From: Lutibacter sp. | Lineage (GTDB): Bacteria; Bacteroidota; Bacteroidia; Flavobacteriales; Flavobacteriaceae | Assembly (NCBI RefSeq): GCF_016342705.1 | Contig: NZ_JAEINV010000018.1 | Location: 1 to 64,000, forward strand | DNA: 64,000 bases | Reading direction: 5' to 3' | Shown here: positions 6,005-48,760 of the stretch, piece after piece | How positions within the stretch are numbered: the stretch's first letter is position 1 | How the letters are laid out: the number at the start of each line of letters is the position of its first letter | Made by a program: the position numbers and the translations under genes | Notes under the pieces: generated by a model | Told to the model about the DNA's origin: nothing | The model's database searches: none | Seen by the model: the letters and a program-made list of their open reading frames with translations, nothing else

Positions 6005-6399
6005 TATTTAAGATGAAGTATGGTTTCCCATGTTTTTCAGAATAAAGATAGTGATTTACATGAATTGAAACCTTCTTTCGCCCTTTTTTTTATCAACAAT
6101 TTATGGACAGTAGTTACTTCCTATGTTTATTAAATATATTCATAGTTCGAAATCCTAAAAACCGGAACGATTTATATGTTCAGCAAAAAGGACTAACATT
6201 AGTATTATTTAATTTTATTTCTCCAAAATGCCTTGTTGCAGCAATTTCTAAATTTTGACTATTAATTCTAGAAGGTTACATTTGGTTCTAATAAGCCTAA
6301 CTGATATTACAACCCTACGTTTTGGGAAAGTAAAATGATTTTAGTTAGAGAGTTTAGGTTATGTTTAATCCCTTCACCAACGCAGTTTTTTAATAAAAT

Positions 6400-8004
6400 T
6401 TAGTTCTTTTTTACACGTTTTAAATCTAAGTGATTTACGGGATTAATTCCTAAACCAGAAACATTTTTTTGTGTAAAGCGCACCACCTCATCATAATACA
6501 ACGGAATGATTACCGATGATTCCATCACCAAACTATCCATTTTTTGGTACAATGCTCTGCGTTTAAAATTATCGGTAATTGTAATAGATTGTTCATACAA
6601 AGCATCAAATTCTTTAGAGCTATAATGCGTGTAATTTGGTCCGTTTGGCGAAAAGTTTTTACTATGAAATATAAATAAATAATTCTCCGCATCGGGATAA
6701 TCAGCCACCCAACTACCTCTAAAAATACTAAGTTTACCATTTACTTTTGTTTGTCGTAATGTGGAAGGTGGTAACACATCAACTTTAACTTCTAAACCCG
6801 TTTTACCAACTTCGCGCTGAATATATTCACACAAATCTAAATATTGACTGTTGGTACTTATGGTTATGGAAGGATTTGCGTTTCCAGTTTCCTGTATATA
6901 CTCTTGCACCAATTGTTTTGCTTTTTCTGGCTGATAGGTATACCCTTTCATATTATTAAACGATGGTAATCCTTTAGGAATAAACCCATTAACCGCTGGA
7001 GTTCCAATGCCATTTCTTAAATATTGAATCATTTTTACACGGTCAAATCCATAATTTAAGGCTTTTCTAATTTTTATTGAGTTGACTTCTTTCTCATCAG
7101 CATCCACATAAACACCTAAATATTCTGTATTTAAATAAGGACCAGAAACCATATCAATTTTTTCTTTATGAACCTCTTTTAATTTTCCATCCGTAGTTAA
7201 TAAATCATCTTTATAAGAAGCATCAATACTACTCATAAAATCTATATTTCCTTGAATAAATTGCAAAAATTCACTTTGTTTGTCTGGCAAAAAAGTAATG
7301 GCAACGGCTTCTAAATACGGTAGTTTATTTCCTTTCTCATCTTTCTCGTAATAATTATTATTTTTTCTGAACACCAATTTGGTATTTTCAATCCATAATT
7401 TAAATTGAAAGGGGCCAGTACCAATTGGGTTTGCTCTAAAAGTACTTCCAAAATAGTCTACCGCTTCTTTAGGAACCACTGAACAATATTTCATACTAAG
7501 TATGCTTAAAAAAGGAGGAAAAGATTGCTTTAAATGTATCACAAACGTACTGTCATTTTTTGCTTCAAAAGTATCCACAAAATCTAACACCCATTTTCCA
7601 GAAGCTGCAATAGTTGGGTCTAACAATCTATTAAAACTATACACAAAATCGTTGGCCACAACTGCTCTGGTGGAATCTTTTCCAAACAATATATGCTTAT
7701 GAAAATTCACATCTTTTCTTAAATTAAAAGCATATGTTTTTCCATCTTCAGAAATTACCCAAGAATGCGCAATATCAGGTTGTACTTCTAACTGATCATC
7801 TAATTGTACCAATCCATTAAACAATTGGTTTGTTGCCCAAATAGTCCGTAAATCTTTTGCAAAAGCCGGATCTAGCGTTGTAATATTAGCGTGTTCATTA
7901 TATCTAAAAACCTGATTATCATTATATTTTGAAGTATGCTTTGTACACGAAACCAACAACAAACTACCAACAACCAACAACCAAAACTTACTTTTCAAAC
8001 CCAT
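6400..8004 (-). CDS. ABC transporter substrate-binding lipoprotein, oligopeptide/SBP_bac_5 type
   Basis: A 534-residue protein of the dipeptide/oligopeptide binding family. Residues 1-20 are a lipoprotein signal with VSC, so Cys20 is the likely lipid anchor. The family hallmark near the N-terminus is visible: ITTLDPAFAKDLRTIWATNQLFNGLVQL followed by DIAHSWVISEDGKTYAFNLRKDVNFH. The C-terminal half contains the usual RKALNYGFDR and GSWVADYPDAENYLFIF segments. It should capture peptides or similar solutes in the periplasm. No permease or ATPase genes are adjacent, so the transporter core must be encoded elsewhere. The start overlaps the end of the upstream monooxygenase-like gene by 17 bp, suggesting one operon. 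Confidence 0.92.
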   Translation of the reverse strand: MGLKSKFWLLVVGSLLLVSCTKHTSKYNDNQVFRYNEHANITTLDPAFAKDLRTIWATNQLFNGLVQLDDQLEVQPDIAHSWVISEDGKTYAFNLRKDVNFHKHILFGKDSTRAVVANDFVYSFNRLLDPTIAASGKWVLDFVDTFEAKNDSTFVIHLKQSFPPFLSILSMKYCSVVPKEAVDYFGSTFRANPIGTGPFQFKLWIENTKLVFRKNNNYYEKDEKGNKLPYLEAVAITFLPDKQSEFLQFIQGNIDFMSSIDASYKDDLLTTDGKLKEVHKEKIDMVSGPYLNTEYLGVYVDADEKEVNSIKIRKALNYGFDRVKMIQYLRNGIGTPAVNGFIPKGLPSFNNMKGYTYQPEKAKQLVQEYIQETGNANPSITISTNSQYLDLCEYIQREVGKTGLEVKVDVLPPSTLRQTKVNGKLSIFRGSWVADYPDAENYLFIFHSKNFSPNGPNYTHYSSKEFDALYEQSITITDNFKRRALYQKMDSLVMESSVIIPLYYDEVVRFTQKNVSGLGINPVNHLDLKRVKKN

Positions 8005-38236: not shown

Positions 38237-39445
38237 ATGAAACCTTCTCAAAACCAAACTCTAACAGACACTTCAAACCCAATAAAAAGAATAATTATTG
38301 GTGTGCAATTTTTATTTGTAGCTTTTGGCGCTACAGTTTTAGTGCCTTTATTAATTGACATTGATCCTTCAGTTGCATTATTTACAGCTGGTGTTGGAAC
38401 ATTAATTTTTCATATAATAACCAAAGGAAAAGTACCAGTATTTTTAGGGAGTAGTTTTGCTTTTATTGCTCCAATTATAGCTGCAACTAAAATTTACGGT
38501 TACCCTGGAACCTTAGGTGGTATTATTGCGGTGGGATTGGTATACGGAATTGTTTCTGCAATTATTAAATTATGGGGATTACGCATAATTGAAAAAATAT
38601 TTCCTGCTGTTGTAGTAGGTCCTGTAATTATGATTATTGGATTATCACTTGCAACTGTTGGCGTTGACATGGCGAAAACAAATTGGCCAATTGCTTTAGT
38701 TGTTTTAGCAACTGCAATTATTATAGTAACATTTACTAAAGGTTTAATTAAACTCATACCTATTTTTATAGGAATTATTGTTGGTTATATTATTTCAATT
38801 ATAATTGGGATTGTAGATTTTTCTTCGGTTAATGAAGCTGCTTGGTTTGCTTTACCTAAGTTTACTACTCCTGAATTTAATTGGGGAGCCATTTTATATA
38901 TGATACCTGTTGCTATTGCTCCTATTATTGAACATATTGGAGATATGTATGCTATTAGTGGTGTTGCAGAAAAACAATTTGTTAAAGATCCTGGATTACA
39001 TAGAACTTTATTAGGAGATGGTATAGCTACAGCTTTTGCTGGATTTATGGGTGGTCCTCCAAACACAACCTACTCTGAGGTTACTGGAGCTGTCGCTTTA
39101 ACTAAAATTACCGACCCTAGAGTATTACGAATTGCAGCTGTAACGGCTATTGTGTTTTCTTTGGTTGGAAAAATTAGTGCAATATTGAAAACCATCCCTG
39201 CAGCAGTATTAGGCGGTATAATGTTGTTACTTTTTGGTATGATTGCTAGTATTGGTATTAAAACCTTAATTGATAATAAAACCGATTTTTCAATTACCAG
39301 AAATCAAGTAATTGTTTCAATTATATTAACAATTGGTATTGGTGGCGCACAATTAGGTTACGGAAACTTTTCATTAGCTGGTATTGGTTTAGCTTCTGTT
39401 GTTGGTGTTATTCTAAATTTAGTTTTGCCAAACCCTTCTAAATAA
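38237..39445 (+). CDS. uracil-xanthine permease family transporter (NCS2, UraA type)
   Basis: A 402-residue inner-membrane symporter of the NCS2 family with about 14 spans. Family marks are FVAFGATVLVPLL in helix 1, GSSFAFIAPI in helix 3, IEHIGDMYAISGVAEKQF with the substrate-site Glu and His, and GGPPNTTYSEVTGAVALTK. Uracil is the likeliest substrate; xanthine cannot be excluded. A bidirectional terminator follows at 39480-39522. Confidence 0.93.
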   Translation: MKPSQNQTLTDTSNPIKRIIIGVQFLFVAFGATVLVPLLIDIDPSVALFTAGVGTLIFHIITKGKVPVFLGSSFAFIAPIIAATKIYGYPGTLGGIIAVGLVYGIVSAIIKLWGLRIIEKIFPAVVVGPVIMIIGLSLATVGVDMAKTNWPIALVVLATAIIIVTFTKGLIKLIPIFIGIIVGYIISIIIGIVDFSSVNEAAWFALPKFTTPEFNWGAILYMIPVAIAPIIEHIGDMYAISGVAEKQFVKDPGLHRTLLGDGIATAFAGFMGGPPNTTYSEVTGAVALTKITDPRVLRIAAVTAIVFSLVGKISAILKTIPAAVLGGIMLLLFGMIASIGIKTLIDNKTDFSITRNQVIVSIILTIGIGGAQLGYGNFSLAGIGLASVVGVILNLVLPNPSK

Positions 39446-39539: not shown

Positions 39540-40835
39540 TTATACATAAAATTTTATAATGAATAGAATTGCAATAATTACCATAATTGGTTTTATTTCT
39601 TTATATCTGCCGGTTAGCAGTTTTAATAAAACGAATGATAACATTCCAAAAACAATTCCCTCCGCTATACTATATGTAAGTGGCATCATTATTATAGTGA
39701 AAAATGCAGGAATAGATTCCGTAAAATCATCTAAATCTATTTTCATTATTGGAGATATCATAAACAAACCTACAATTATTAAAGCTGGTGCTGTTGCAGC
39801 TGCTGGAATAATCATAAAAATTGGAGCGAAAAACAATGCCAATGCAAACATTCCTGCAACAGTTAATGCTGTCATCCCTGTTTTTCCTCCTTCAGCAACA
39901 CCTGCAGCACTTTCTACATAAGTTGTAACTGTTGATGTCCCTAAAATTGCTCCAACAAAAGTTCCAATTGCATCTGCAAATAATGCTTGTTTAACTCTTG
40001 GAACATTTCCTTCTTCATCCAACATTCCTGATTTTGATGATACGCCAACCAATGTTCCCACAGTATCAAACATATCAACAAATAAAAACGTGAATAACAC
40101 TATTAACATATCTAAACTAAATACTTGAGAAAAATCAAATTTGAAGAAAATTGGCTCTAATGATGGAGGTAAACTTACAAAGCTAAAATTCTCAGGAATC
40201 ACAGTTACACCAGCAATTAAACCTATTATAGTTGATGCTAAAATTCCAATTAAAATGGCTCCTTTTATTTTTTTTGTTAATAAAACACCTATTATTAATA
40301 CACCTGCCATACCTACTAAAACTTCAGGATTTTTCATGCTTCCTAAAGTTACTAGTGTTGCTGGATTATCAACTATTAATCCAGTTCCTTTTAAACCTAT
40401 AAAAGCAATAAACAGACCTATTCCAACGGAAACTGCATGTTTTAAATTTAAAGGTATTGAATTTACTATAAGTTCACGAATATTAAACGCCGTTAAAATA
40501 ATAAAGATGATTCCTTCAAGAAAAACAGCTGTTAATGCAAATTCCCAAGAATAGCCCATTCCTAAAACTACTGTAAATGCAAAAAAGGCATTTAAACCCA
40601 TACCTGGAGCAAGTGCAAATGGTAATTTTGCATATAACGCCATAATTAATGTGGCAATAACTGCCGATAATGCTGTTGCTGTAAAAACGGCATCTTTATC
40701 CATTCCTGCCGCACTTAAAATACTTGGATTAACTGCCAAAATATATACCATAGTCATAAAAGTGGTAATTCCTGCAATTATTTCCGTTTTTAAGGTTGAT
40801 TTATTTTCTGTTATTTTAAAAAACTTGTCTAACAT
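39540..40835 (-). CDS. AzgA-type purine permease (NCS2)
   Basis: A 431-residue membrane transporter for adenine, guanine or hypoxanthine. The AzgA branch is shown by EIIAGITTFMTMVYILAVNPSIL, the APGMGLNAFFAF loop, DMFDTVGTLVGV with the substrate-site Asp, and STVTTYVESAAGVAEGG. It lies 10 bp after the Tsx-like outer-membrane gene, so the pair should bring nucleobases or nucleosides across both membranes. Confidence 0.94.
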   Translation of the reverse strand: MLDKFFKITENKSTLKTEIIAGITTFMTMVYILAVNPSILSAAGMDKDAVFTATALSAVIATLIMALYAKLPFALAPGMGLNAFFAFTVVLGMGYSWEFALTAVFLEGIIFIILTAFNIRELIVNSIPLNLKHAVSVGIGLFIAFIGLKGTGLIVDNPATLVTLGSMKNPEVLVGMAGVLIIGVLLTKKIKGAILIGILASTIIGLIAGVTVIPENFSFVSLPPSLEPIFFKFDFSQVFSLDMLIVLFTFLFVDMFDTVGTLVGVSSKSGMLDEEGNVPRVKQALFADAIGTFVGAILGTSTVTTYVESAAGVAEGGKTGMTALTVAGMFALALFFAPIFMIIPAAATAPALIIVGLFMISPIMKIDLDDFTESIPAFFTIIMMPLTYSIAEGIVFGMLSFVLLKLLTGRYKEIKPIMVIIAILFIIKFYV

Positions 40836-41794: not shown

Positions 41795-41825
41795 TTGATT
41801 TACACATACTTATGTTGTAAATTTA
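41795..41825 (+). promoter_or_regulatory. possible promoter of hoxF1
   Basis: TTG at 41795 and TAAATTTA at 41818-41825 are 20 bp apart, close to the Bacteroidota -33/-7 layout (last base A instead of G). It is 21 bp before the start codon, just after the inverted repeat. Confidence 0.35.
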
Positions 41826-41846: not shown

Positions 41847-43580
41847 ATGAAACGGACAAGGCTATTATCTCGCCTTTGGGAGTTTCAGAATAAGTATGGT
41901 TACATCCCTGACAATGCTATTTCAGAAATTGCTCAAAAATTAAGAGTATCAAAAATTGAAATTGAAGGAGTTATCTCTTTTTATCATTTCTTCCACAGAA
42001 AACCAACTGGTAAATATATTGTTTACCTTAATAACAGCATTATTTCAGAATTAAATGGATTTAAGGATATAAAAGCTGCTTTTGAAAAAGAAACGGGTTG
42101 CACTTTTAATAGTTACGACAACAATCCACTGTTTTCATTATTCGAAACATCTTGTATTGGACTTAGCGATCAAGAACCAGCAGCACTTATAAATTTTCAT
42201 GCATTTACTCATTTAACTCCTGAAAAAGTTAAATCAATTATTGAAAAGCTAAAAAATTATGTAAAATTAGATTCCATTGCAAATAATCCAGTTTGTAAAA
42301 TTCAATATACACCTTCTGAAAATAAAACAATTTTCTTCAGAAATTACATCTTAGGTAACTCATTAAAAAAAATAAAACCTAACACCCAAAATAAACTTTT
42401 AGCACAAATTGAAAAAGCTGAGTTAAAAGGAAGAGGTGGTGCATTCTTTTCAACCGCAGCAAAATGGAATGCTTGTAAAACTTCAAATAGTACAAAAAAA
42501 TACATAATTTGTAATGCTGATGAAGGTGAACCAGGTACTTTTAAAGATAAAGCATTACTAACTAATTATCCTGGTTTAGTAATTGAAGGTATGATTTTAG
42601 CAGCCTATATTACAGGTGCCAAAACTGGATATATTTATTTAAGGACCGAATATAAATATTTACTAAAAAAACTAAAAAATACTTTAATGGAATTTGAAGA
42701 AAAAGGGTTTTTAGGTAAAAATATACAAGGCATTGATAATTTTAATTTTAAAATAAAAATTGAATTAGGTGCAGGAGCATATGTTTGCGGAGCCGAAACT
42801 GCTTTAATAGAATCTTTAGAAGGTTTTAGAGGAGAACCAAGGATTCGGAAACATTTCCCTACAGAAAATGGATATTTAGGCTATTCCACTATTGTAAATA
42901 ATGTAGAAACCTTTGCTATGGCTTCTAGAATTATTGAATTAGGTGCTAACTTTATAAATACTATAGGAACAAAACAAAGTAAAGGAACCAAAATAATTAG
43001 CCTAGCTGGCGATATTGCAAAACCGGGAATTTATGAAATTGAATGGGGAATGTCTGTACAAGAAATACTTCATTTAAGCCAAGCAACAGCACCACATTTT
43101 GTGCAAATTAGTGGACCTTCTGGAGAATGTATTAATGAAACCGAATTTCATAGAAAAATATGTGAGGAAGATTTAGTTTGTGGTGGCTCCATAATGGTTT
43201 TTAATAAATTTAGAAGCATTATTCAAATATTAGAAAACTTTAGTAAATTCTTTAAAATTGAATCTTGTGGCGCATGTACCCCTTGCCGTGCAGGAAATCA
43301 AATTTTATATGAAAAAATCCTAAAAATTAAACGAGGAATATGCACTTCAAAAGATTTAGAAGAGATAAAAGAATGGGGTAAAATTATGCAAAGCTCAAGC
43401 CGTTGTGGTTTAGGACAATATGCAGCAAACACCTTAATAATGGCCATTGATAAATTTAATGATTATTTTAGTTTAAAAGTAGCTTCGTGCACAGATAACT
43501 GTAATGTAGAATTTGATATGCAAAATGCAGTTTATGATTACGATCTTATAATAAACACTCAAATTAACGATGTTAATTAA
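41847..43580 (+). CDS. hoxF: HoxF paralogue 1: NAD(P)-linked diaphorase flavoprotein
   Basis: A 577-residue fusion of a NuoE-like thioredoxin fold (residues 5-140) and a NuoF-like flavoprotein (160-560). NADEGEPGTFKDK, GAGAYVCG and a complete 4Fe-4S motif (SCGACTPCRAG then RCGLG) are present, so FMN and one cluster are expected. The FMN loop reads GRGGAFFSTAAKW, with Phe200 where Gly is usual. The nucleotide-pocket motif reads CG-Ala316-Glu317, where HoxF and NuoF normally have two acidic residues. The second cysteine pair of the NuoE part is not conserved, as in the Ralstonia HoxF. It is followed by a second, similar gene 279 bp later. It should carry electrons between NAD(P) and the HoxU clusters. 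Confidence 0.9.
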   Translation: MKRTRLLSRLWEFQNKYGYIPDNAISEIAQKLRVSKIEIEGVISFYHFFHRKPTGKYIVYLNNSIISELNGFKDIKAAFEKETGCTFNSYDNNPLFSLFETSCIGLSDQEPAALINFHAFTHLTPEKVKSIIEKLKNYVKLDSIANNPVCKIQYTPSENKTIFFRNYILGNSLKKIKPNTQNKLLAQIEKAELKGRGGAFFSTAAKWNACKTSNSTKKYIICNADEGEPGTFKDKALLTNYPGLVIEGMILAAYITGAKTGYIYLRTEYKYLLKKLKNTLMEFEEKGFLGKNIQGIDNFNFKIKIELGAGAYVCGAETALIESLEGFRGEPRIRKHFPTENGYLGYSTIVNNVETFAMASRIIELGANFINTIGTKQSKGTKIISLAGDIAKPGIYEIEWGMSVQEILHLSQATAPHFVQISGPSGECINETEFHRKICEEDLVCGGSIMVFNKFRSIIQILENFSKFFKIESCGACTPCRAGNQILYEKILKIKRGICTSKDLEEIKEWGKIMQSSSRCGLGQYAANTLIMAIDKFNDYFSLKVASCTDNCNVEFDMQNAVYDYDLIINTQINDVN

Positions 43581-43823
43581 ATTATAATAAATGCAATATT
43601 TAGCATATAATAAATATTAATTTTATCATAAACATATTTTAATACGCCATTATTTACTTTTATATCAATTTAATATGTAGCATTTCGTATCTAACTACTA
43701 GGTATAAAATAATAAAATAATGATTTTGTTGTATAATTTTCAATAGTCTACTACTGTCTATTTAAATAACTGTAAAAAGAGTTTTCAACATTAAAAATCA
43801 ACACTTTAAATATGAATAATCCG

Positions 43824-43831
43824 TAACTTTA
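43824..43831 (+). promoter_or_regulatory. possible -7 element of hoxF2
   Basis: TAACTTTA resembles TAnnTTTG except for the last base, 28 bp before the start. The 279-bp gap after hoxF1 has no clear terminator, so hoxF2 may also be read from upstream. Confidence 0.3.
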
Positions 43832-43859
43832 AGTACCAAAAAGTACAATACAACTTCAT

Positions 43860-45587
43860 ATGGAAAGAATACATTTATTAAATAAACTTTGGGAGTACCA
43901 GCATCAGTTTGGTTACATTTCAAAAAAAGCAATTTCAGAAATTTCTATTTTATTAAATGTTTCTGCAATTGAAATTGAAAGTGTAATTTCATTTTATCAT
44001 TTTTTTCAAAAAAATCCAACAGGAAAACATACCATTTATTTAAGTAACAATATTATTTCTGAATTAAAAGGATTTGCTGAAGTTAAAACTGCTTTTGAAA
44101 AAGAAACTGGTTGTACATTTAATGAACTCGGAAACGAAGAATTTTCTTTGTTTGAAACATCATGTATCGGTTTAAATGATCAAAGTCCAGCTGCACTTAT
44201 AAATTTTCAACCTTTTGCAGATTTAACTCCAAAAAAAGTATCGTTAATAATTCAAAAAATACGAAATGGCGAAAATGTAATAAATTTTGCAAGTAAAGTG
44301 AAAAGTAAAATACATTTTATTCCTACAAATAATAAAGCTGTTATTTTTAAACCTTATGAAATAGGAACAAGTATTAAAGAAGGCTTAAAATATACACCTC
44401 AACAAATAATAGATAAAATTTCTAAATCTAAACTATTGGGCTGTGGTGGCGCTTTTTTTGAAGTAGGCTACAAATGGCAATCCTGCAAAAACAATGAAGC
44501 CGATGCAAAATATATTATTTGCAATGCAGACGAAGGAGAACCCGGAACATTTAAAGATAGAGCTTTGCTTCAACACCTTCCTGGTTTAGTTATTGAAGGC
44601 ATGATTTTAGCAGGTTATGCAACCGGAGCAAGAGAAGGTATTTTCTATTTAAGAGCCGAATATCAATTTTTATTAAAAGAATTGGAACAACAAATTAAAC
44701 AGTTTCATGATAAAAATTTATTGGGAAAAAACATTCAAGAAATTGAAGGTTTTAATTTTGAAATAAGAATTCAATTAGGTGGAGGATCTTATGTTTGCGG
44801 CGCCGCATCTGCATTAATTGAATCTTTAGAAGGTCGCAGAGGAGAACCACCCGTTAGAACTTGGTCTGCGACAAAATACGGCTTTAAAAACAAACCTACA
44901 GTAGTAAACAACGTAGAAACATTAGCTTACGCATCCAGAATTATTGAATTAGGTGAAGATTTCTTTTTAACTATTGGAACACCAAAATCACCGGGAACAA
45001 AATTAATTAGTATATCAGGCGATGTTGCAAAACCAGGTATTTATGAAATTGAATATGGAACCACAATTGGAGATTTATTAAGTATTGAAATGAGCCAAGC
45101 AACATCTCCTTATCTAGTACAAGTTAGTGGGCCATCTGGAGAATGTTTAAATACTACCGAATTCAATCGTAAAATTTGTAAAGAAGATATTTTGTGTGGC
45201 GGTTCATTTATGGTATTTAATAGAAACCGAGACATATTGCAGATTTTAAGAAATTTTATGGAATTTTTTAAAGAAGAATCTTGCGGTGTTTGTACACCTT
45301 GTAGAGCTGGTAATTTTATTTTAACAGAAAAAGTAAAGAAAATTCAACGCGGCTTATGTACACAAGAAGATTTAGATGAAATTCAACAATGGGGAAACAT
45401 AATTAAACTTTCAAGCAGATGCGGATTAGGAAAGGCATCTCCAAATGCTTTAATAATGGCAACTGAAAAGTTTAAAGATTATTTTAATGTAAAAATAGCG
45501 CCAAACAATGGAAACCAAAATGTAGAATTTGATATGGAAAATGCTATTTATGAATTTGATAGTTTAATAAAAGACACACAACTTTAG
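43860..45587 (+). CDS. hoxF: HoxF paralogue 2: diverged diaphorase flavoprotein
   Basis: A 575-residue protein with the same two-domain plan as the preceding gene and clear similarity over its whole length, so the pair arose by duplication. The 4Fe-4S motif is intact (SCGVCTPCRAG, RCGLG). The FMN loop is more altered: GCGGAFFEVGYKW, with Cys195 in place of the usual Arg. The nucleotide-pocket motif reads CG-Ala315-Ala316, so both usual acidic residues are gone. NADEGEPGTFKDR is kept. It lies 14 bp before the HoxU-HoxY fusion and is the copy physically tied to the hydrogenase genes. It may bind NADPH or another partner, or pair with paralogue 1. Confidence 0.88.
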   Translation: MERIHLLNKLWEYQHQFGYISKKAISEISILLNVSAIEIESVISFYHFFQKNPTGKHTIYLSNNIISELKGFAEVKTAFEKETGCTFNELGNEEFSLFETSCIGLNDQSPAALINFQPFADLTPKKVSLIIQKIRNGENVINFASKVKSKIHFIPTNNKAVIFKPYEIGTSIKEGLKYTPQQIIDKISKSKLLGCGGAFFEVGYKWQSCKNNEADAKYIICNADEGEPGTFKDRALLQHLPGLVIEGMILAGYATGAREGIFYLRAEYQFLLKELEQQIKQFHDKNLLGKNIQEIEGFNFEIRIQLGGGSYVCGAASALIESLEGRRGEPPVRTWSATKYGFKNKPTVVNNVETLAYASRIIELGEDFFLTIGTPKSPGTKLISISGDVAKPGIYEIEYGTTIGDLLSIEMSQATSPYLVQVSGPSGECLNTTEFNRKICKEDILCGGSFMVFNRNRDILQILRNFMEFFKEESCGVCTPCRAGNFILTEKVKKIQRGLCTQEDLDEIQQWGNIIKLSSRCGLGKASPNALIMATEKFKDYFNVKIAPNNGNQNVEFDMENAIYEFDSLIKDTQL

Positions 45588-45601
45588 CAAAAATATTAAA
45601 A

Positions 45602-46864
45602 ATGGAAAACATAACCTTTAAATTAGATGGAAGAATTTGCACCGCCGAAAAAGGCTTAAATTTAATTGAAGCTGCAAAACAAAATGGTATCTTTATTCCA
45701 ACTTTATGCCATTTTAAACACTTAAATCCATTAGGAAGTTGCAGAGTTTGCACTGTCAACTTAAATGGCCGTTCAGTTGCTGGATGTACCATTCAAGTTC
45801 AAGAAGGAATGGATATTGAAGTAAATACTATAGAATTACTTGATACCCGAAAAGCCATTTTAGAAATGATGTTTGTTGAAGGAAATCACTTTTGTCCTTC
45901 CTGTGAAAAAAGTGGTGATTGTCAAATGCAAAATTTAGGATACGAAACAGGTATCAGATTTACACGTTTTCCTCACCTATTTGTTGACAGACTGGTAGAT
46001 GCACGTCCAGAACGCATTGTCATCAACCAAAATAGGTGCATTAAATGTAAACGCTGTATTGAAGAAGTAAAAACGGCAGATGGCTATAATGTATTTAGTT
46101 TTACCGAAAGAGGTAACAGCACTAAAGTTTCTATAGATTATAAGCAAGAAGCTAAATTATCTGAAATTGAAGCTGAACGTGCAATGCAAATTTGCCCAAC
46201 AGGTTCTATTTTGGTAAAAGGAAAAACATTCAGTAAACCATTTGGCGATCGTCAATTTGATTTAGGTCCTGAAGGCAAATTATTTTCCTTAGATAAAATT
46301 AAAAAACATAGAACTAAAAATAAGAAAAAACGAATTGCAACCACCTCATTGGCAGGTTGTTTTGGCTGCCACATGTCTATGTTAGATATAGATTTAGGCT
46401 TATTAGATTTATTAGAAGTTGTTGAATTTAACAAATCTCCATTAACTGATCTAAAAAACTTTACAGAACATTGTGATATTGGTTTAATTGAAGGTGGTTG
46501 TTGTAACACAAATAATATTGAAGTTTTAAGAGAGTTCCGTAAACATTGTGATATTTTAGTTTCAGTAGGAGAATGTGCAATTTGGGGCGGATTACCAGCT
46601 ATAAGAAATACTTTTCCACTTGAAGAATGCTTAAGAGAAGCTTATTTAGAATCTATGACAAGTGAAGAAGGAGCTACAATTATCCCTAATCACGAAGACA
46701 TTCCTAAAATATTAAACAAAGTATATTCTAACCACGAAGTGGTAAAAATAGATTATCACATTCCAGGTTGCCCACCAAATGCCAATCATATTTGGAATGT
46801 TGTAAAACATATTTTATTTGAAGAAGAATATTCCATCGCATATCCTGAATTTAAATATGACTAA
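45602..46864 (+). CDS. fused HoxU-HoxY: diaphorase Fe-S subunit plus [NiFe] hydrogenase small subunit
   Basis: A 420-residue fusion. Residues 1-235 are HoxU: a plant-type 2Fe-2S site (Cys36, 47, 50, 62), the His-Cys cluster site (His96, Cys98, 101, 107) and a NuoG N4-like site (CIKCKRC ... QICPTG). A Lys-rich stretch (KKHRTKNKKKRI) near 235-248 joins them. Residues 249-420 are HoxY: Cys253/Cys256 in GCFGCH, GGCC at 298-301, Cys325 in GECA and Cys390 in PGCPPN, giving the proximal 4Fe-4S cluster. HoxU and HoxY are separate genes in Ralstonia and cyanobacteria. The frame is continuous with no slip signal. It lies 14 bp after hoxF2 and 17 bp before hoxH. Confidence 0.93.
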   Translation: MENITFKLDGRICTAEKGLNLIEAAKQNGIFIPTLCHFKHLNPLGSCRVCTVNLNGRSVAGCTIQVQEGMDIEVNTIELLDTRKAILEMMFVEGNHFCPSCEKSGDCQMQNLGYETGIRFTRFPHLFVDRLVDARPERIVINQNRCIKCKRCIEEVKTADGYNVFSFTERGNSTKVSIDYKQEAKLSEIEAERAMQICPTGSILVKGKTFSKPFGDRQFDLGPEGKLFSLDKIKKHRTKNKKKRIATTSLAGCFGCHMSMLDIDLGLLDLLEVVEFNKSPLTDLKNFTEHCDIGLIEGGCCNTNNIEVLREFRKHCDILVSVGECAIWGGLPAIRNTFPLEECLREAYLESMTSEEGATIIPNHEDIPKILNKVYSNHEVVKIDYHIPGCPPNANHIWNVVKHILFEEEYSIAYPEFKYD

Positions 46865-46881
46865 ACCTTAAAAATTTAAAA

Positions 46882-48333
46882 ATGAGTACAAAAAAAATAG
46901 TTATAGAACCAGTAACCAGAGTTGAAGGTCATGGAAAAGTAACCATTAAAATAAATGAAAATGGTAAAGTTGAAGACGCTTTTTTACATATTGTAGAATT
47001 TAGAGGTTTCGAAAAATTTATACAAGGTCATCCCTATTGGGAAGCACCAGTTTTAGTGCAACGTTTGTGTGGTATCTGTCCTGTAAGTCATCATCTTGCA
47101 GCCGCAAAAGCAATTGATCAATTAGTTGGTGTTGATCCTGAAAACTTATCACCTACTGCTACAAAATTGCGTAAATTATTACATTACGGACAAGTATTTC
47201 AGTCTCATGCATTACACTTTTTCTACTTAGCTTCACCAGATATTTTATTTGGTATCAACGCTCCTGCTGAAAAAAGAAATATTGTTGCCGTTGCAGCAGA
47301 AAATAGAGAATTGGCAAAAAAAGGAATTTTAATGCGAAAATTTGGTCAAGAAATAATTAAAGCGCTGGCAGGCAAAAAAATTCACGGAATATTAGCTGTG
47401 CCTGGTGGAGTTCATAAAACATTTACCAAACAAGAACGTCAATATTTTTTAGATGGAATTCAAATTCCAACAATTGATACTATGATTCAATGGTCAAAAG
47501 AAATAATCGACTTTATGAAAAATTATCACACCGAAAATGCTAAATGGATTGATCATTTTGCCGCGTATCCATCAAATCATTTAGGCTTGGTTGATAAAGA
47601 AACAGGGGCTTTAGAATTATACGATGGAAGATTACGTTCTGTTGATTTTGAAGGAAAAGAACTTCTAAATATTGAAGATATTGAATATCGCTACCACTTT
47701 AAAGAAGCTGTAGAGCCTTGGTCATATTTAAAATTTCCTTATATGACAAAATACGGAAGAGAAAATGGATGGAACAGAGTTGGTCCGTTAGCGCGTTTAA
47801 ATACTGCTTCACATATTACAACCCCTTTTGCAGAAATTGAACGACAAATATTTAAGGCATACACAAAAAACAAACCTAACAATATGACCATGCACACACA
47901 TTGGGCACGTTTAATAGAAATGCTACATTGTGCAGAATTAATGAAGGAATTATTACATGATGATGCGTTAATGGGAACCGATTTAGTTAGAAAAGGAACG
48001 CCGAGAAATAAAGGAATTGGTATTATTGAAGCGCCAAGAGGAACCTTAATTCACGAATATCATACTGATGATAAAGGCTTAATCACAAAATGTAATTTAA
48101 TAGTATCTACTACGCATAATAATGAAGCAATGAACCGAGGCGTTAGAGTTGTTGCTCAGGAAGTTTTAAATGATAAACCTGAGATTACTGAACCTATGCT
48201 AAATCAAATTGAAATGGCAATTAGAGCCTACGATCCTTGTTTAAGTTGCGCAACACATGCATTAGGTGAAATGCCTTTAATTGTTCAAATAGAAGACATC
48301 CAAGGAAATTTAATAGATGAAAAAATTAGATAA
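46882..48333 (+). CDS. hoxH: [NiFe] hydrogenase large subunit, NAD-reducing type
   Basis: A 483-residue catalytic subunit. The two nickel motifs are complete: L1 RLCGICPVSHH with Cys63 and Cys66, L2 DPCLSCATHA with Cys453 and Cys456. EPVTRVEGHGK opens the protein as in all large subunits. About 24 residues follow His459 and should be removed by the HoxW-type protease after Ni insertion. The L2 form DPCLSCATHA matches HoxH of soluble NAD-reducing enzymes (group 3d). No signal peptide, so the enzyme is cytoplasmic. The following hoxW overlaps by 17 bp. Confidence 0.95.
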   Translation: MSTKKIVIEPVTRVEGHGKVTIKINENGKVEDAFLHIVEFRGFEKFIQGHPYWEAPVLVQRLCGICPVSHHLAAAKAIDQLVGVDPENLSPTATKLRKLLHYGQVFQSHALHFFYLASPDILFGINAPAEKRNIVAVAAENRELAKKGILMRKFGQEIIKALAGKKIHGILAVPGGVHKTFTKQERQYFLDGIQIPTIDTMIQWSKEIIDFMKNYHTENAKWIDHFAAYPSNHLGLVDKETGALELYDGRLRSVDFEGKELLNIEDIEYRYHFKEAVEPWSYLKFPYMTKYGRENGWNRVGPLARLNTASHITTPFAEIERQIFKAYTKNKPNNMTMHTHWARLIEMLHCAELMKELLHDDALMGTDLVRKGTPRNKGIGIIEAPRGTLIHEYHTDDKGLITKCNLIVSTTHNNEAMNRGVRVVAQEVLNDKPEITEPMLNQIEMAIRAYDPCLSCATHALGEMPLIVQIEDIQGNLIDEKIR

Positions 48334-48760
48334 AACACTTATAATAGGTATTGGAAATAACACTCGCCAAGACGATGGTCTTGGTTGGTGTTTTTTAGAT
48401 AAATTAATGGAAGATGGCTATAATGAAGATCATTTATTATACAAATATCAATTAATGGTGGAAGATGCCGAATTAATTAGCGAGTATGATACTGTTATTT
48501 TTGTTGACGCAAATAAAACTACAAATAACAATGGATTTGCTATTGAACAAATTTATCCTGCGGAAAAAGTAGCCTTTTCTACCCACTCGGTTCCTCCAAA
48601 CCAAATATTAAATTTGTGTGAAACAATTTATGATAAAAAGCCAAAAGCCTATGTAATTAAAATTGATGGCTACAGTTGGAATTTTACTATTAGTTTAACA
48701 AATAAAGCTACAGAAAATTTAAATAATTCTTTGTCCCATTTTAAATCGTTTATATTTTAA
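48317..48760 (+). CDS. hoxW: hydrogenase maturation endopeptidase (HoxW type)
   Basis: A 147-residue protease of the HycI/HybD family that trims the C-terminus of the nickel-loaded large subunit. The N-terminal motif is GIGNNTRQDDGLGW; likely Ni ligands are Asp20, Asp64 in FVDAN and His90 in STHSVPP. It overlaps the end of hoxH by 17 bp, so translation is probably coupled with its substrate. This supports HoxH being matured and active. Confidence 0.9.
   Translation: MKKLDKTLIIGIGNNTRQDDGLGWCFLDKLMEDGYNEDHLLYKYQLMVEDAELISEYDTVIFVDANKTTNNNGFAIEQIYPAEKVAFSTHSVPPNQILNLCETIYDKKPKAYVIKIDGYSWNFTISLTNKATENLNNSLSHFKSFIF

Follow-up and report, generated by a model that had tools for sequence, protein, structure and literature searches.

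Two HoxF flavoproteins at one soluble [NiFe] hydrogenase locus of Lutibacter, one of them with a rebuilt adenosine pocket

A five-gene hydrogenase locus in a 64,000-nucleotide stretch of Lutibacter sp. DNA (contig NZ_JAEINV010000018.1, positions 1 to 64,000; "the window" in what follows) carries two complete HoxF flavoprotein genes, hoxF1 and hoxF2, in front of a single set of hoxUY, hoxH and hoxW, and is a real, conserved and rare variant of a known enzyme. What is new lies in the second flavoprotein, F2: in all 14 F2 sequences compared, the adenosine end of the coenzyme pocket is rebuilt, with the residues for flavin, nicotinamide and cluster intact. Judging from sequence comparison, we see about an even chance that the two HoxF are exchangeable on one core, with F1 serving nicotinamide adenine dinucleotide (NAD) and F2 probably its phosphorylated form (NADP). 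The more specific proposal of a coenzyme-switchable hydrogenase, which would exchange NAD- and NADP-type HoxF on one HoxUY-HoxH core from separate promoters, the NADP-type site having evolved by the same Glu-to-Ala change that engineers have used, falls in our estimate somewhat short of even.

The locus and its gene products

All five hox reading frames called in the window are open and complete and lie on the + strand: hoxF1 (41847..43580, 577 aa), hoxF2 (43860..45587, 575 aa), a hoxUY fusion (45602..46864, 420 aa), hoxH (46882..48333, 483 aa) and hoxW (48317..48760, 147 aa). A spacer of 279 bp (43581..43859, + strand) separates the two hoxF genes, hoxUY starts 14 bp after hoxF2, hoxH follows after another 17 bp, and the last 17 bp of hoxH are shared with hoxW. 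F1 and F2 alike contain the Pfam domains 2Fe-2S_thioredx, Complex1_51K and NADH_4Fe-4S above cut-offs, are 59% identical to each other across 576 columns and have the same closest solved structure, 5xf9_A, a chain of a NAD-reducing [NiFe]-hydrogenase. The N-terminal half of HoxUY is HoxU by NCBIfam (score 176.7, under the model cut-off of 333), its C-terminal half is Oxidored_q6, the small subunit, and cysteine is present in 19 of 19 conserved Cys columns. HoxH, the [NiFe] large subunit, has both Ni-binding motifs, L1 and L2, intact (RLCGIC from residue 61 and DPCLSC from 451), as the original prediction had read them, together with a C-terminal tail of 24 residues beyond the His of the last motif; every NCBIfam large-subunit match to it falls under its cut-off. 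The overlapping gene product HoxW is a hydrogenase maturation protease, matching TIGR00072 above cut-off and no Pfam family in the Pfam scan. Homologues of HoxF, HoxU, HoxY and HoxH are thus found at one locus (U and Y fused) along with its own maturation protease gene, which supports its assignment to soluble, group-3d-like NAD(P)-linked [NiFe] hydrogenases and bears out the earlier view of a cytoplasmic NAD(P)-linked enzyme.

A close known relative is the soluble hydrogenase HoxFUYHI2 of Cupriavidus necator (group 3d, pHG1, NC_005241), which likewise has a NuoE-like domain without a full cluster site, regions for flavin mononucleotide (FMN) and the 4Fe-4S cluster, the order F-U-Y-H-W, an overlapping protease gene and a HoxH tail that the Lutibacter one resembles; its HoxF is 44% identical to F1. 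However, C. necator has one HoxF, separate U and Y and a glutamate, E341, in the coenzyme pocket, whereas the Lutibacter locus has two HoxF, a fused UY and, in F2, Ala at the E341 position. Fusion of U and Y is ordinary within Flavobacteriaceae and does not set the Lutibacter locus apart: of the 44 different loci in which UY was matched (the window excluded, and locus L029 omitted as a copy of L009), 43 have it, and a single one, L046, has the genes split. Operons of other Flavobacteriaceae with a single HoxF share the fusion and read HoxF-HoxUY-HoxH-HoxW; they differ from the Lutibacter locus in having one HoxF, and 20/20 of these proteins (here Fx) keep the glutamates at 182 and 183 as well as the FP motif.

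The genome of the window (3.63 Mb, 35 contigs) has hypB, hypF, hypD and hypE above cut-offs, and hypA just under, on another contig, which makes maturation of the hydrogenase in trans plausible. On that contig (C8), 5071–15259 of locus L054 encodes a membrane-bound-type [NiFe] hydrogenase, a b-type cytochrome, a protease and hypA, hypB, hypF, hypD and hypE. The search with PF01512 found no separate NuoF in the genome; a third match (C3:493108-493548; L047 710-2050), considered as NuoF of complex I, is RnfC (TIGR01945, 572 bits, cut-off 246). In the window, hoxF1 is preceded by two xanthine/uracil-type permeases on opposite strands (38237–39445 and 39540–40835) and then a DUF5020 protein, and a SulP transporter with a STAS domain lies downstream of the hox genes.

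The original prediction regarded two flavins next to one hydrogen-activating site as the layout needed for electron bifurcation, and two subunits of the FMN-binding type do adjoin one NiFe core here. However, the known bifurcating enzymes described in excerpts of PMC8880783 and PMC9304861 have a single flavin plus clusters B2–B5, which are missing from Hox. In NiFe-HydABCSL and the Bfu family HydB is homologous to HoxF, and Bfu enzymes combine one flavin with additional HydB and HydC clusters that the Lutibacter locus does not show. By Pfam there is no Fer4 domain in F1 or F2, and aligned with Escherichia coli NuoE both keep one of the four cysteines that are the cluster ligands of NuoE. Neither the extra ferredoxin-like clusters of HydB nor a NuoE-type 2Fe-2S partner is found, and a bifurcating hydrogenase with two flavins appears extremely improbable.

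The coenzyme site of F2

Residues were compared, in E. coli NuoF numbering, between the 14 F2 and 44 other HoxF (20 Fx, 15 single and 9 F1), with the divergent L046 protein reported apart and the RnfC row excluded. Counting as F2-specific any loss where one residue occupies at least 80% of the non-F2 sequences and is changed in at least 90% of F2, we found 14 positions, five of which fall within 30 residues at the coenzyme site: A177S, E183A, F203S, P204A and the change of 206 to Lys (hypergeometric 0.0004 for such clustering, with the span picked after seeing the data). The contrast is complete at four of them: position 183 is Glu in 44/44 non-F2 HoxF (F1 9/9) and Ala in 14/14 F2, 203 is F or Y in 44/44 and Ser in 14/14, 204 is Pro in 44/44 and Ala in 14/14, and 206 is E, D, Q or H in 44/44 and Lys in 14/14. 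In hoxF2 of the window the changes lie in residues 310–341 (44787..44882, + strand) as S310, A316, S336, A337 and K339, where A316 occupies the position of NuoF E183, C. necator HoxF E341 and F1 E317, the last being the adenosine-ribose glutamate that F1 keeps, and S336 that of F203. The new loop is itself conserved, with A183, S203, A204, T205 and K206 in 14/14 F2. Unchanged in the same 14 sequences are the FMN-loop glycines, F67, K72, N90, D92, E93, E95, Y178, G181, N217 and N218, and the four 4Fe-4S cysteines are kept in all 13 F2 long enough to include them. A glutamate occupies the E183 position also in 14/14 further Bacteroidota HoxF/HydB-like proteins.

What would such changes do? In complex I of Thermus thermophilus the adenosine half of NADH is held by Glu185 together with Phe70 and Phe205 (excerpts of PMC11677225); in the Nqo1 subunit of this complex, residue 185 is the counterpart of E183 and residue 205 that of F203. 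The C. necator enzyme is described as strictly NAD+-dependent, with engineering needed for NADP+, and its E341A/S342R variant, credited to Preissler and colleagues, accepts NADP+ with a Michaelis constant near the NAD+ value and a turnover about four times lower (excerpts of PMC10127272 and PMC11563201). F2 naturally has Ala at the E341 position and so, in 14/14 cases, lacks the glutamate whose loss marks the NADP-accepting HoxF; it differs from the variant in having Ser instead of Arg at 342 and, additionally, Ser for F203, Ala for P204 and Lys206. The matching E. coli work, that of Morina in 2011, reportedly concerned E183. A natural comparison is offered by the soluble hydrogenase of Hydrogenophaga pseudoflava, which reduces NADP+ somewhat (0.8 U per mg); in the excerpts of PMC12809855 one HoxF is described and NAD+ is the main substrate, so that NADP use by a natural enzyme of this kind has some precedent. 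Among solved structures the best match to both F1 and F2 is the NAD-reducing hydrogenase 5xf9/5xfa of Hydrogenophilus thermoluteolus, which, unlike F2, has Glu at the 183 position. The same entries are among the top folds for an AlphaFold model of F2, which confirms the fold and, at a mean predicted local distance difference test (pLDDT) score of 73, is too weak for the pocket to be read. F2 looks like a working flavoprotein with an altered adenosine end, and its intact flavin, nicotinamide and cluster residues together with the lost glutamate argue for, without proving, the use of NADP(H).

Two other explanations bear on the same residues. F2 might use no pyridine nucleotide at all and donate to ferredoxin, free flavin or an unknown protein, with F1 as the only NAD(P) subunit: the adenosine contacts E183 and F203 are lost jointly in 14/14 F2, which could abolish dinucleotide binding, and free flavins can be reduced by soluble hydrogenases (excerpts of PMC12809855). 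We consider this unlikely, since the nicotinamide-side residues E95, F67 and K72 and the FMN-loop glycines are unchanged throughout, the conserved new loop fits a changed specificity and not decay, and Pfam finds no extra ferredoxin-like domain in F2. Alternatively, F1 and F2 could be plain redundant duplicates that catalyse the same reaction from different promoters, in agreement with their identical domains, 59% identity and differing upstream elements; since five of the 14 losses specific to F2 crowd into a 30-residue span of the coenzyme site, we give this possibility little credence.

F2 is not a decaying gene either, since its flavin and cluster residues are intact and its ratio of nonsynonymous to synonymous substitution rates (dN/dS) is below that of F1. 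Across the 36 pairs that the nine tandem genomes give, amino-acid identity averages 72% for F1, 80% for F2, 86% for UY and 91% for H, and median dN/dS is 0.158, 0.104, 0.076 and 0.054, respectively, so by this estimate both copies are under purifying selection, with F2 the more constrained.

Some other features of the site were also considered. The arginine of the GRGG motif, lost in F2, was dropped as a key change, as the position also varies in F1 and in single HoxF; moreover, judging by their titles, structure entries of the Aquifex aeolicus NuoF variant R66G contain bound NADH, R66 being probably the same arginine. In the CG(E/D)E motif, Ala stands in place of the first acidic residue in F1 (9/9), F2 (14/14) and 4 of the 15 single Lutibacter HoxF, where the other 11 and 20/20 Fx have Glu; the Ala shared by F1 and F2 may reflect parallel change or gene conversion. 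The L046 protein (6099–7871, - strand) comes from a different family of the order, where it is a single HoxF beside split hoxU and hoxY; it reads CGEASAL and thus resembles F2 in having Ala at the E183 position.

Distribution and phylogeny of the pair

Two full-length HoxF genes in tandem, as claimed in the original prediction, could have been an assembly artefact or a one-off duplicate, which is ruled out by the same pair in eight further genomes. A scan of genome contigs for F2 gave 12 loci, eight of them Lutibacter loci of the order F1-F2-UY-H-W, with an F1-F2 gap of 277–308 bp at the same place, and four from other genera. The genome of the window groups with Lutibacter, and the nearest named locus is that of Lutibacter maritimus (HoxF1 89% and HoxUY 95% identical). 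Among 36 genomes of the genus, eight have F1 and F2, 15 a single full-length F1-type HoxF (one, G005, at a contig end), three only fragments (G003, G006 and G025, left out of the comparisons) and ten no match of this kind, one of these (G031) with just a 40% match to another type; several of these genomes are incomplete.

Outside the genus, the four loci have different arrangements. Winogradskyella vincentii and Winogradskyella alexanderae (L009 and L012) read Fx-UY-F2-UY-H-W, a Seonamhaeicola metagenome-assembled genome (MAG; L010) reads Fx-UY-H-F2-UY-H-W, and a Winogradskyella MAG (G454, locus L008) has F2-UY-H-W alone, preceded by hypA, hypF, hypD and hypE, with hypA just below cut-off. A further two-HoxF locus (G106, L028), whose F2 is truncated by a contig end, came from the family search. 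L009 and L012 thus hold two complete HoxF-HoxUY modules for one HoxH over 4.6–13 kb, with 19/19 Cys columns in both UY, and in L010 (3–12.9 kb) the tandem hox operons adjoin a distant second hydrogenase large subunit at 3–1328. In total, 14 genomes including that of the window bear F2, and 13 of them hold a second, E183-type (NAD-type) HoxF within 5 kb.

Beyond these the pair is rare. In the family 21 of 397 genomes match at E <= 1e-125, four of them, the window's own included, with two HoxF; at E <= 1e-105 there are matches in 3 of 296 genomes of the order and 47 of 395 of the phylum, with two HoxF in the window's own genome only, and part of the phylum matches are of the HydABC type. One HoxF is accordingly the rule, as was stated for known group 3d loci, in 17/21 matching family and 46/47 matching phylum genomes, where about three or four candidates were scored per genome (about three for these last counts) and a second HoxF could escape detection. 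No two-HoxF locus was found in the 14 of 45 newly met phylum loci that were inspected over about 14 kb each, and none is described in the open-access papers searched, as judged by titles, term matches and abstract openings. The pair has not proved common and redundant, an outcome that the original prediction had named as refuting it: F2 is both rare and diverged at its coenzyme site.

The split between the two HoxF is old. In a midpoint-rooted HoxF tree of 60 rows (the RnfC row and the partial F2 of L028 left out, the latter retained in the residue comparison; L029 dropped from alignments and from the UY and HoxH trees; E. coli NuoF, C. necator HoxF and L046 flagged as long branches), the F2 clade (13 rows, 100/100) is sister to the 9 F1 together with the 15 full-length single Lutibacter HoxF (24 rows, 100/99). 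The UY and HoxH trees show no deep split of the core comparable to that of F1 and F2; in the UY tree five single-HoxF Lutibacter intermix with the tandem genomes and eight others form a separate clade. F2 of Winogradskyella and Seonamhaeicola nest within Lutibacter F2 (nodes 99/89 and 100/96), and the UY adjoining F2 in these genera nests within Lutibacter UY with modest support, so that F2-UY-H-W looks like a unit movable without F1. The second Seonamhaeicola HoxH also falls inside Lutibacter. Transfer of F2-UY-H-W between genera, in whichever direction and to whatever extent, is likely from these trees. From Fx-UY-H/F2-UY-H-W through Fx-UY/F2-UY-H-W to F1/F2-UY-H-W, the arrangements resemble successive losses in which both HoxF are retained, and the side-by-side operons of Seonamhaeicola and those of Winogradskyella with one hoxH gone suggest a route to a two-HoxF arrangement, although the Lutibacter pair need not have arisen in this way.

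Upstream elements and exchange of HoxF on one core

The two hoxF genes also differ in what precedes them. In the window the element CGTAACTTTAAGTAC (43822..43836, + strand) lies upstream of hoxF2; its family form, CGTAACTTTAGTTAC, putatively promoter-like, begins 31–39 bp before F2 with at most two mismatches in 8/9 tandem loci, is found in 0/9 F1 upstreams and in about 0.001 of shuffles, and occurs in 2/11 and 0/4 of the upstreams of two kinds of single HoxF. With the same tolerance TTGATTATCAA is found before F1 in 8/9 loci (one out of place) and before F2 in 2/9, and shuffles match it in 7 to 12% per sequence; upstream of hoxF1 in the window the nearest site (41795..41805, + strand) is weak. 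These counts are suggestive of different upstream elements for F1 and F2. A scan for sigma-70 promoters and terminators was uninformative, giving 48 promoter-like sites against 43.2 in shuffles and two terminator-like ones against 2.9. The near-palindrome GTAACTTTAGTTAC lies about 38 bp before hoxF2 (43822–43836) and before some single hoxF, is exact in L011, L028, L014 and L017, and might bind a regulator; the idea of a strict palindrome, GTAACNNNNGTTAC, was rejected, as this motif is exact in 2/14 F2, 0/9 F1 and 2/15 single-HoxF upstreams.

How might the two copies work together? The original prediction left the choice between the swapping of flavoprotein modules and the presence of both copies in one complex. 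F1 and F2 are adjacent and long co-inherited in Lutibacter, as could be expected if they shared a larger complex. Two cores might, for instance, dimerise with a different HoxF on each and so form an H2-driven enzyme with two sites for nucleotides, or a transhydrogenase. However, the pair comes with a single hoxU, the 277–308 bp spacer comes with differing upstream elements, F2 can be the sole HoxF found (L008), and 15/36 genomes of the genus have one full-length F1-type HoxF alone; together with these differences in upstream elements, the rebuilt F2 pocket favours the swap, and a joint complex seems to us rather unlikely.

We therefore return to exchange. In this mechanism, F1 and F2 would vie for one docking site, on the HoxU part of a single cytoplasmic HoxUY-HoxH core. 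Hydrogen would be split at the NiFe site of HoxH and the electrons would pass via the HoxY and HoxU clusters to the docked HoxF, F1 or F2, with its 4Fe-4S cluster and FMN. F1 would hand them to NAD+, and F2, lacking the glutamate thought to exclude the 2'-phosphate, would most likely hand them to NADP+ or prefer it. With F1 behind its own upstream element and F2 in one string of genes with hoxUY-hoxH-hoxW, the division of electrons from hydrogen between the NAD and NADP pools would depend on the ratio of F1 to F2. What the analysis establishes is the genes with their age and conservation, the changes in the pocket and the differences upstream. The preference for NADP, the exchange at one docking site and the separate regulation are all points that we infer from comparison of genes.

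Several observations weigh against this mechanism. The Winogradskyella MAG with L008 has F2 as the only HoxF found in the whole assembly (completeness not given), so that F2 need not be a partner module, and the single-copy L046 protein with Ala183 indicates that the change needs no partner HoxF. The second half of the engineered switch is missing, with Ser at the 342 position in 14/14 F2; Lys206 and Arg200 are mere candidates for the base that would meet the 2'-phosphate, and Arg200 is also found in F1; the engineered variant is itself about four times slower with NADP+ (excerpts of PMC10127272). The genome also has PntB, another possible NADPH route. As to regulation, CGTAACTTTAGTTAC is present in just 1/5 F2 loci of other genera, the window's own TTGATTATCAA copy has three mismatches, and both motifs were drawn by eye from the same sequences in which they were later counted. 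Median synonymous divergence (dS) is about 1.1–1.3, hence the dN/dS values are approximate, and three Winogradskyella HoxH fall just outside Lutibacter (24 Lutibacter-side rows, 84/85), hence any transfer could have run either way.

Soluble hydrogenases are sought as H2-driven regenerators of NADPH. If our reading is true, the F2 lineage with its NAD-type twin would provide a ready template for this and a clean test of coenzyme choice in HoxF and NuoF, and in Lutibacter the swap of one hydrogenase subunit would direct electrons to one coenzyme pool or the other.

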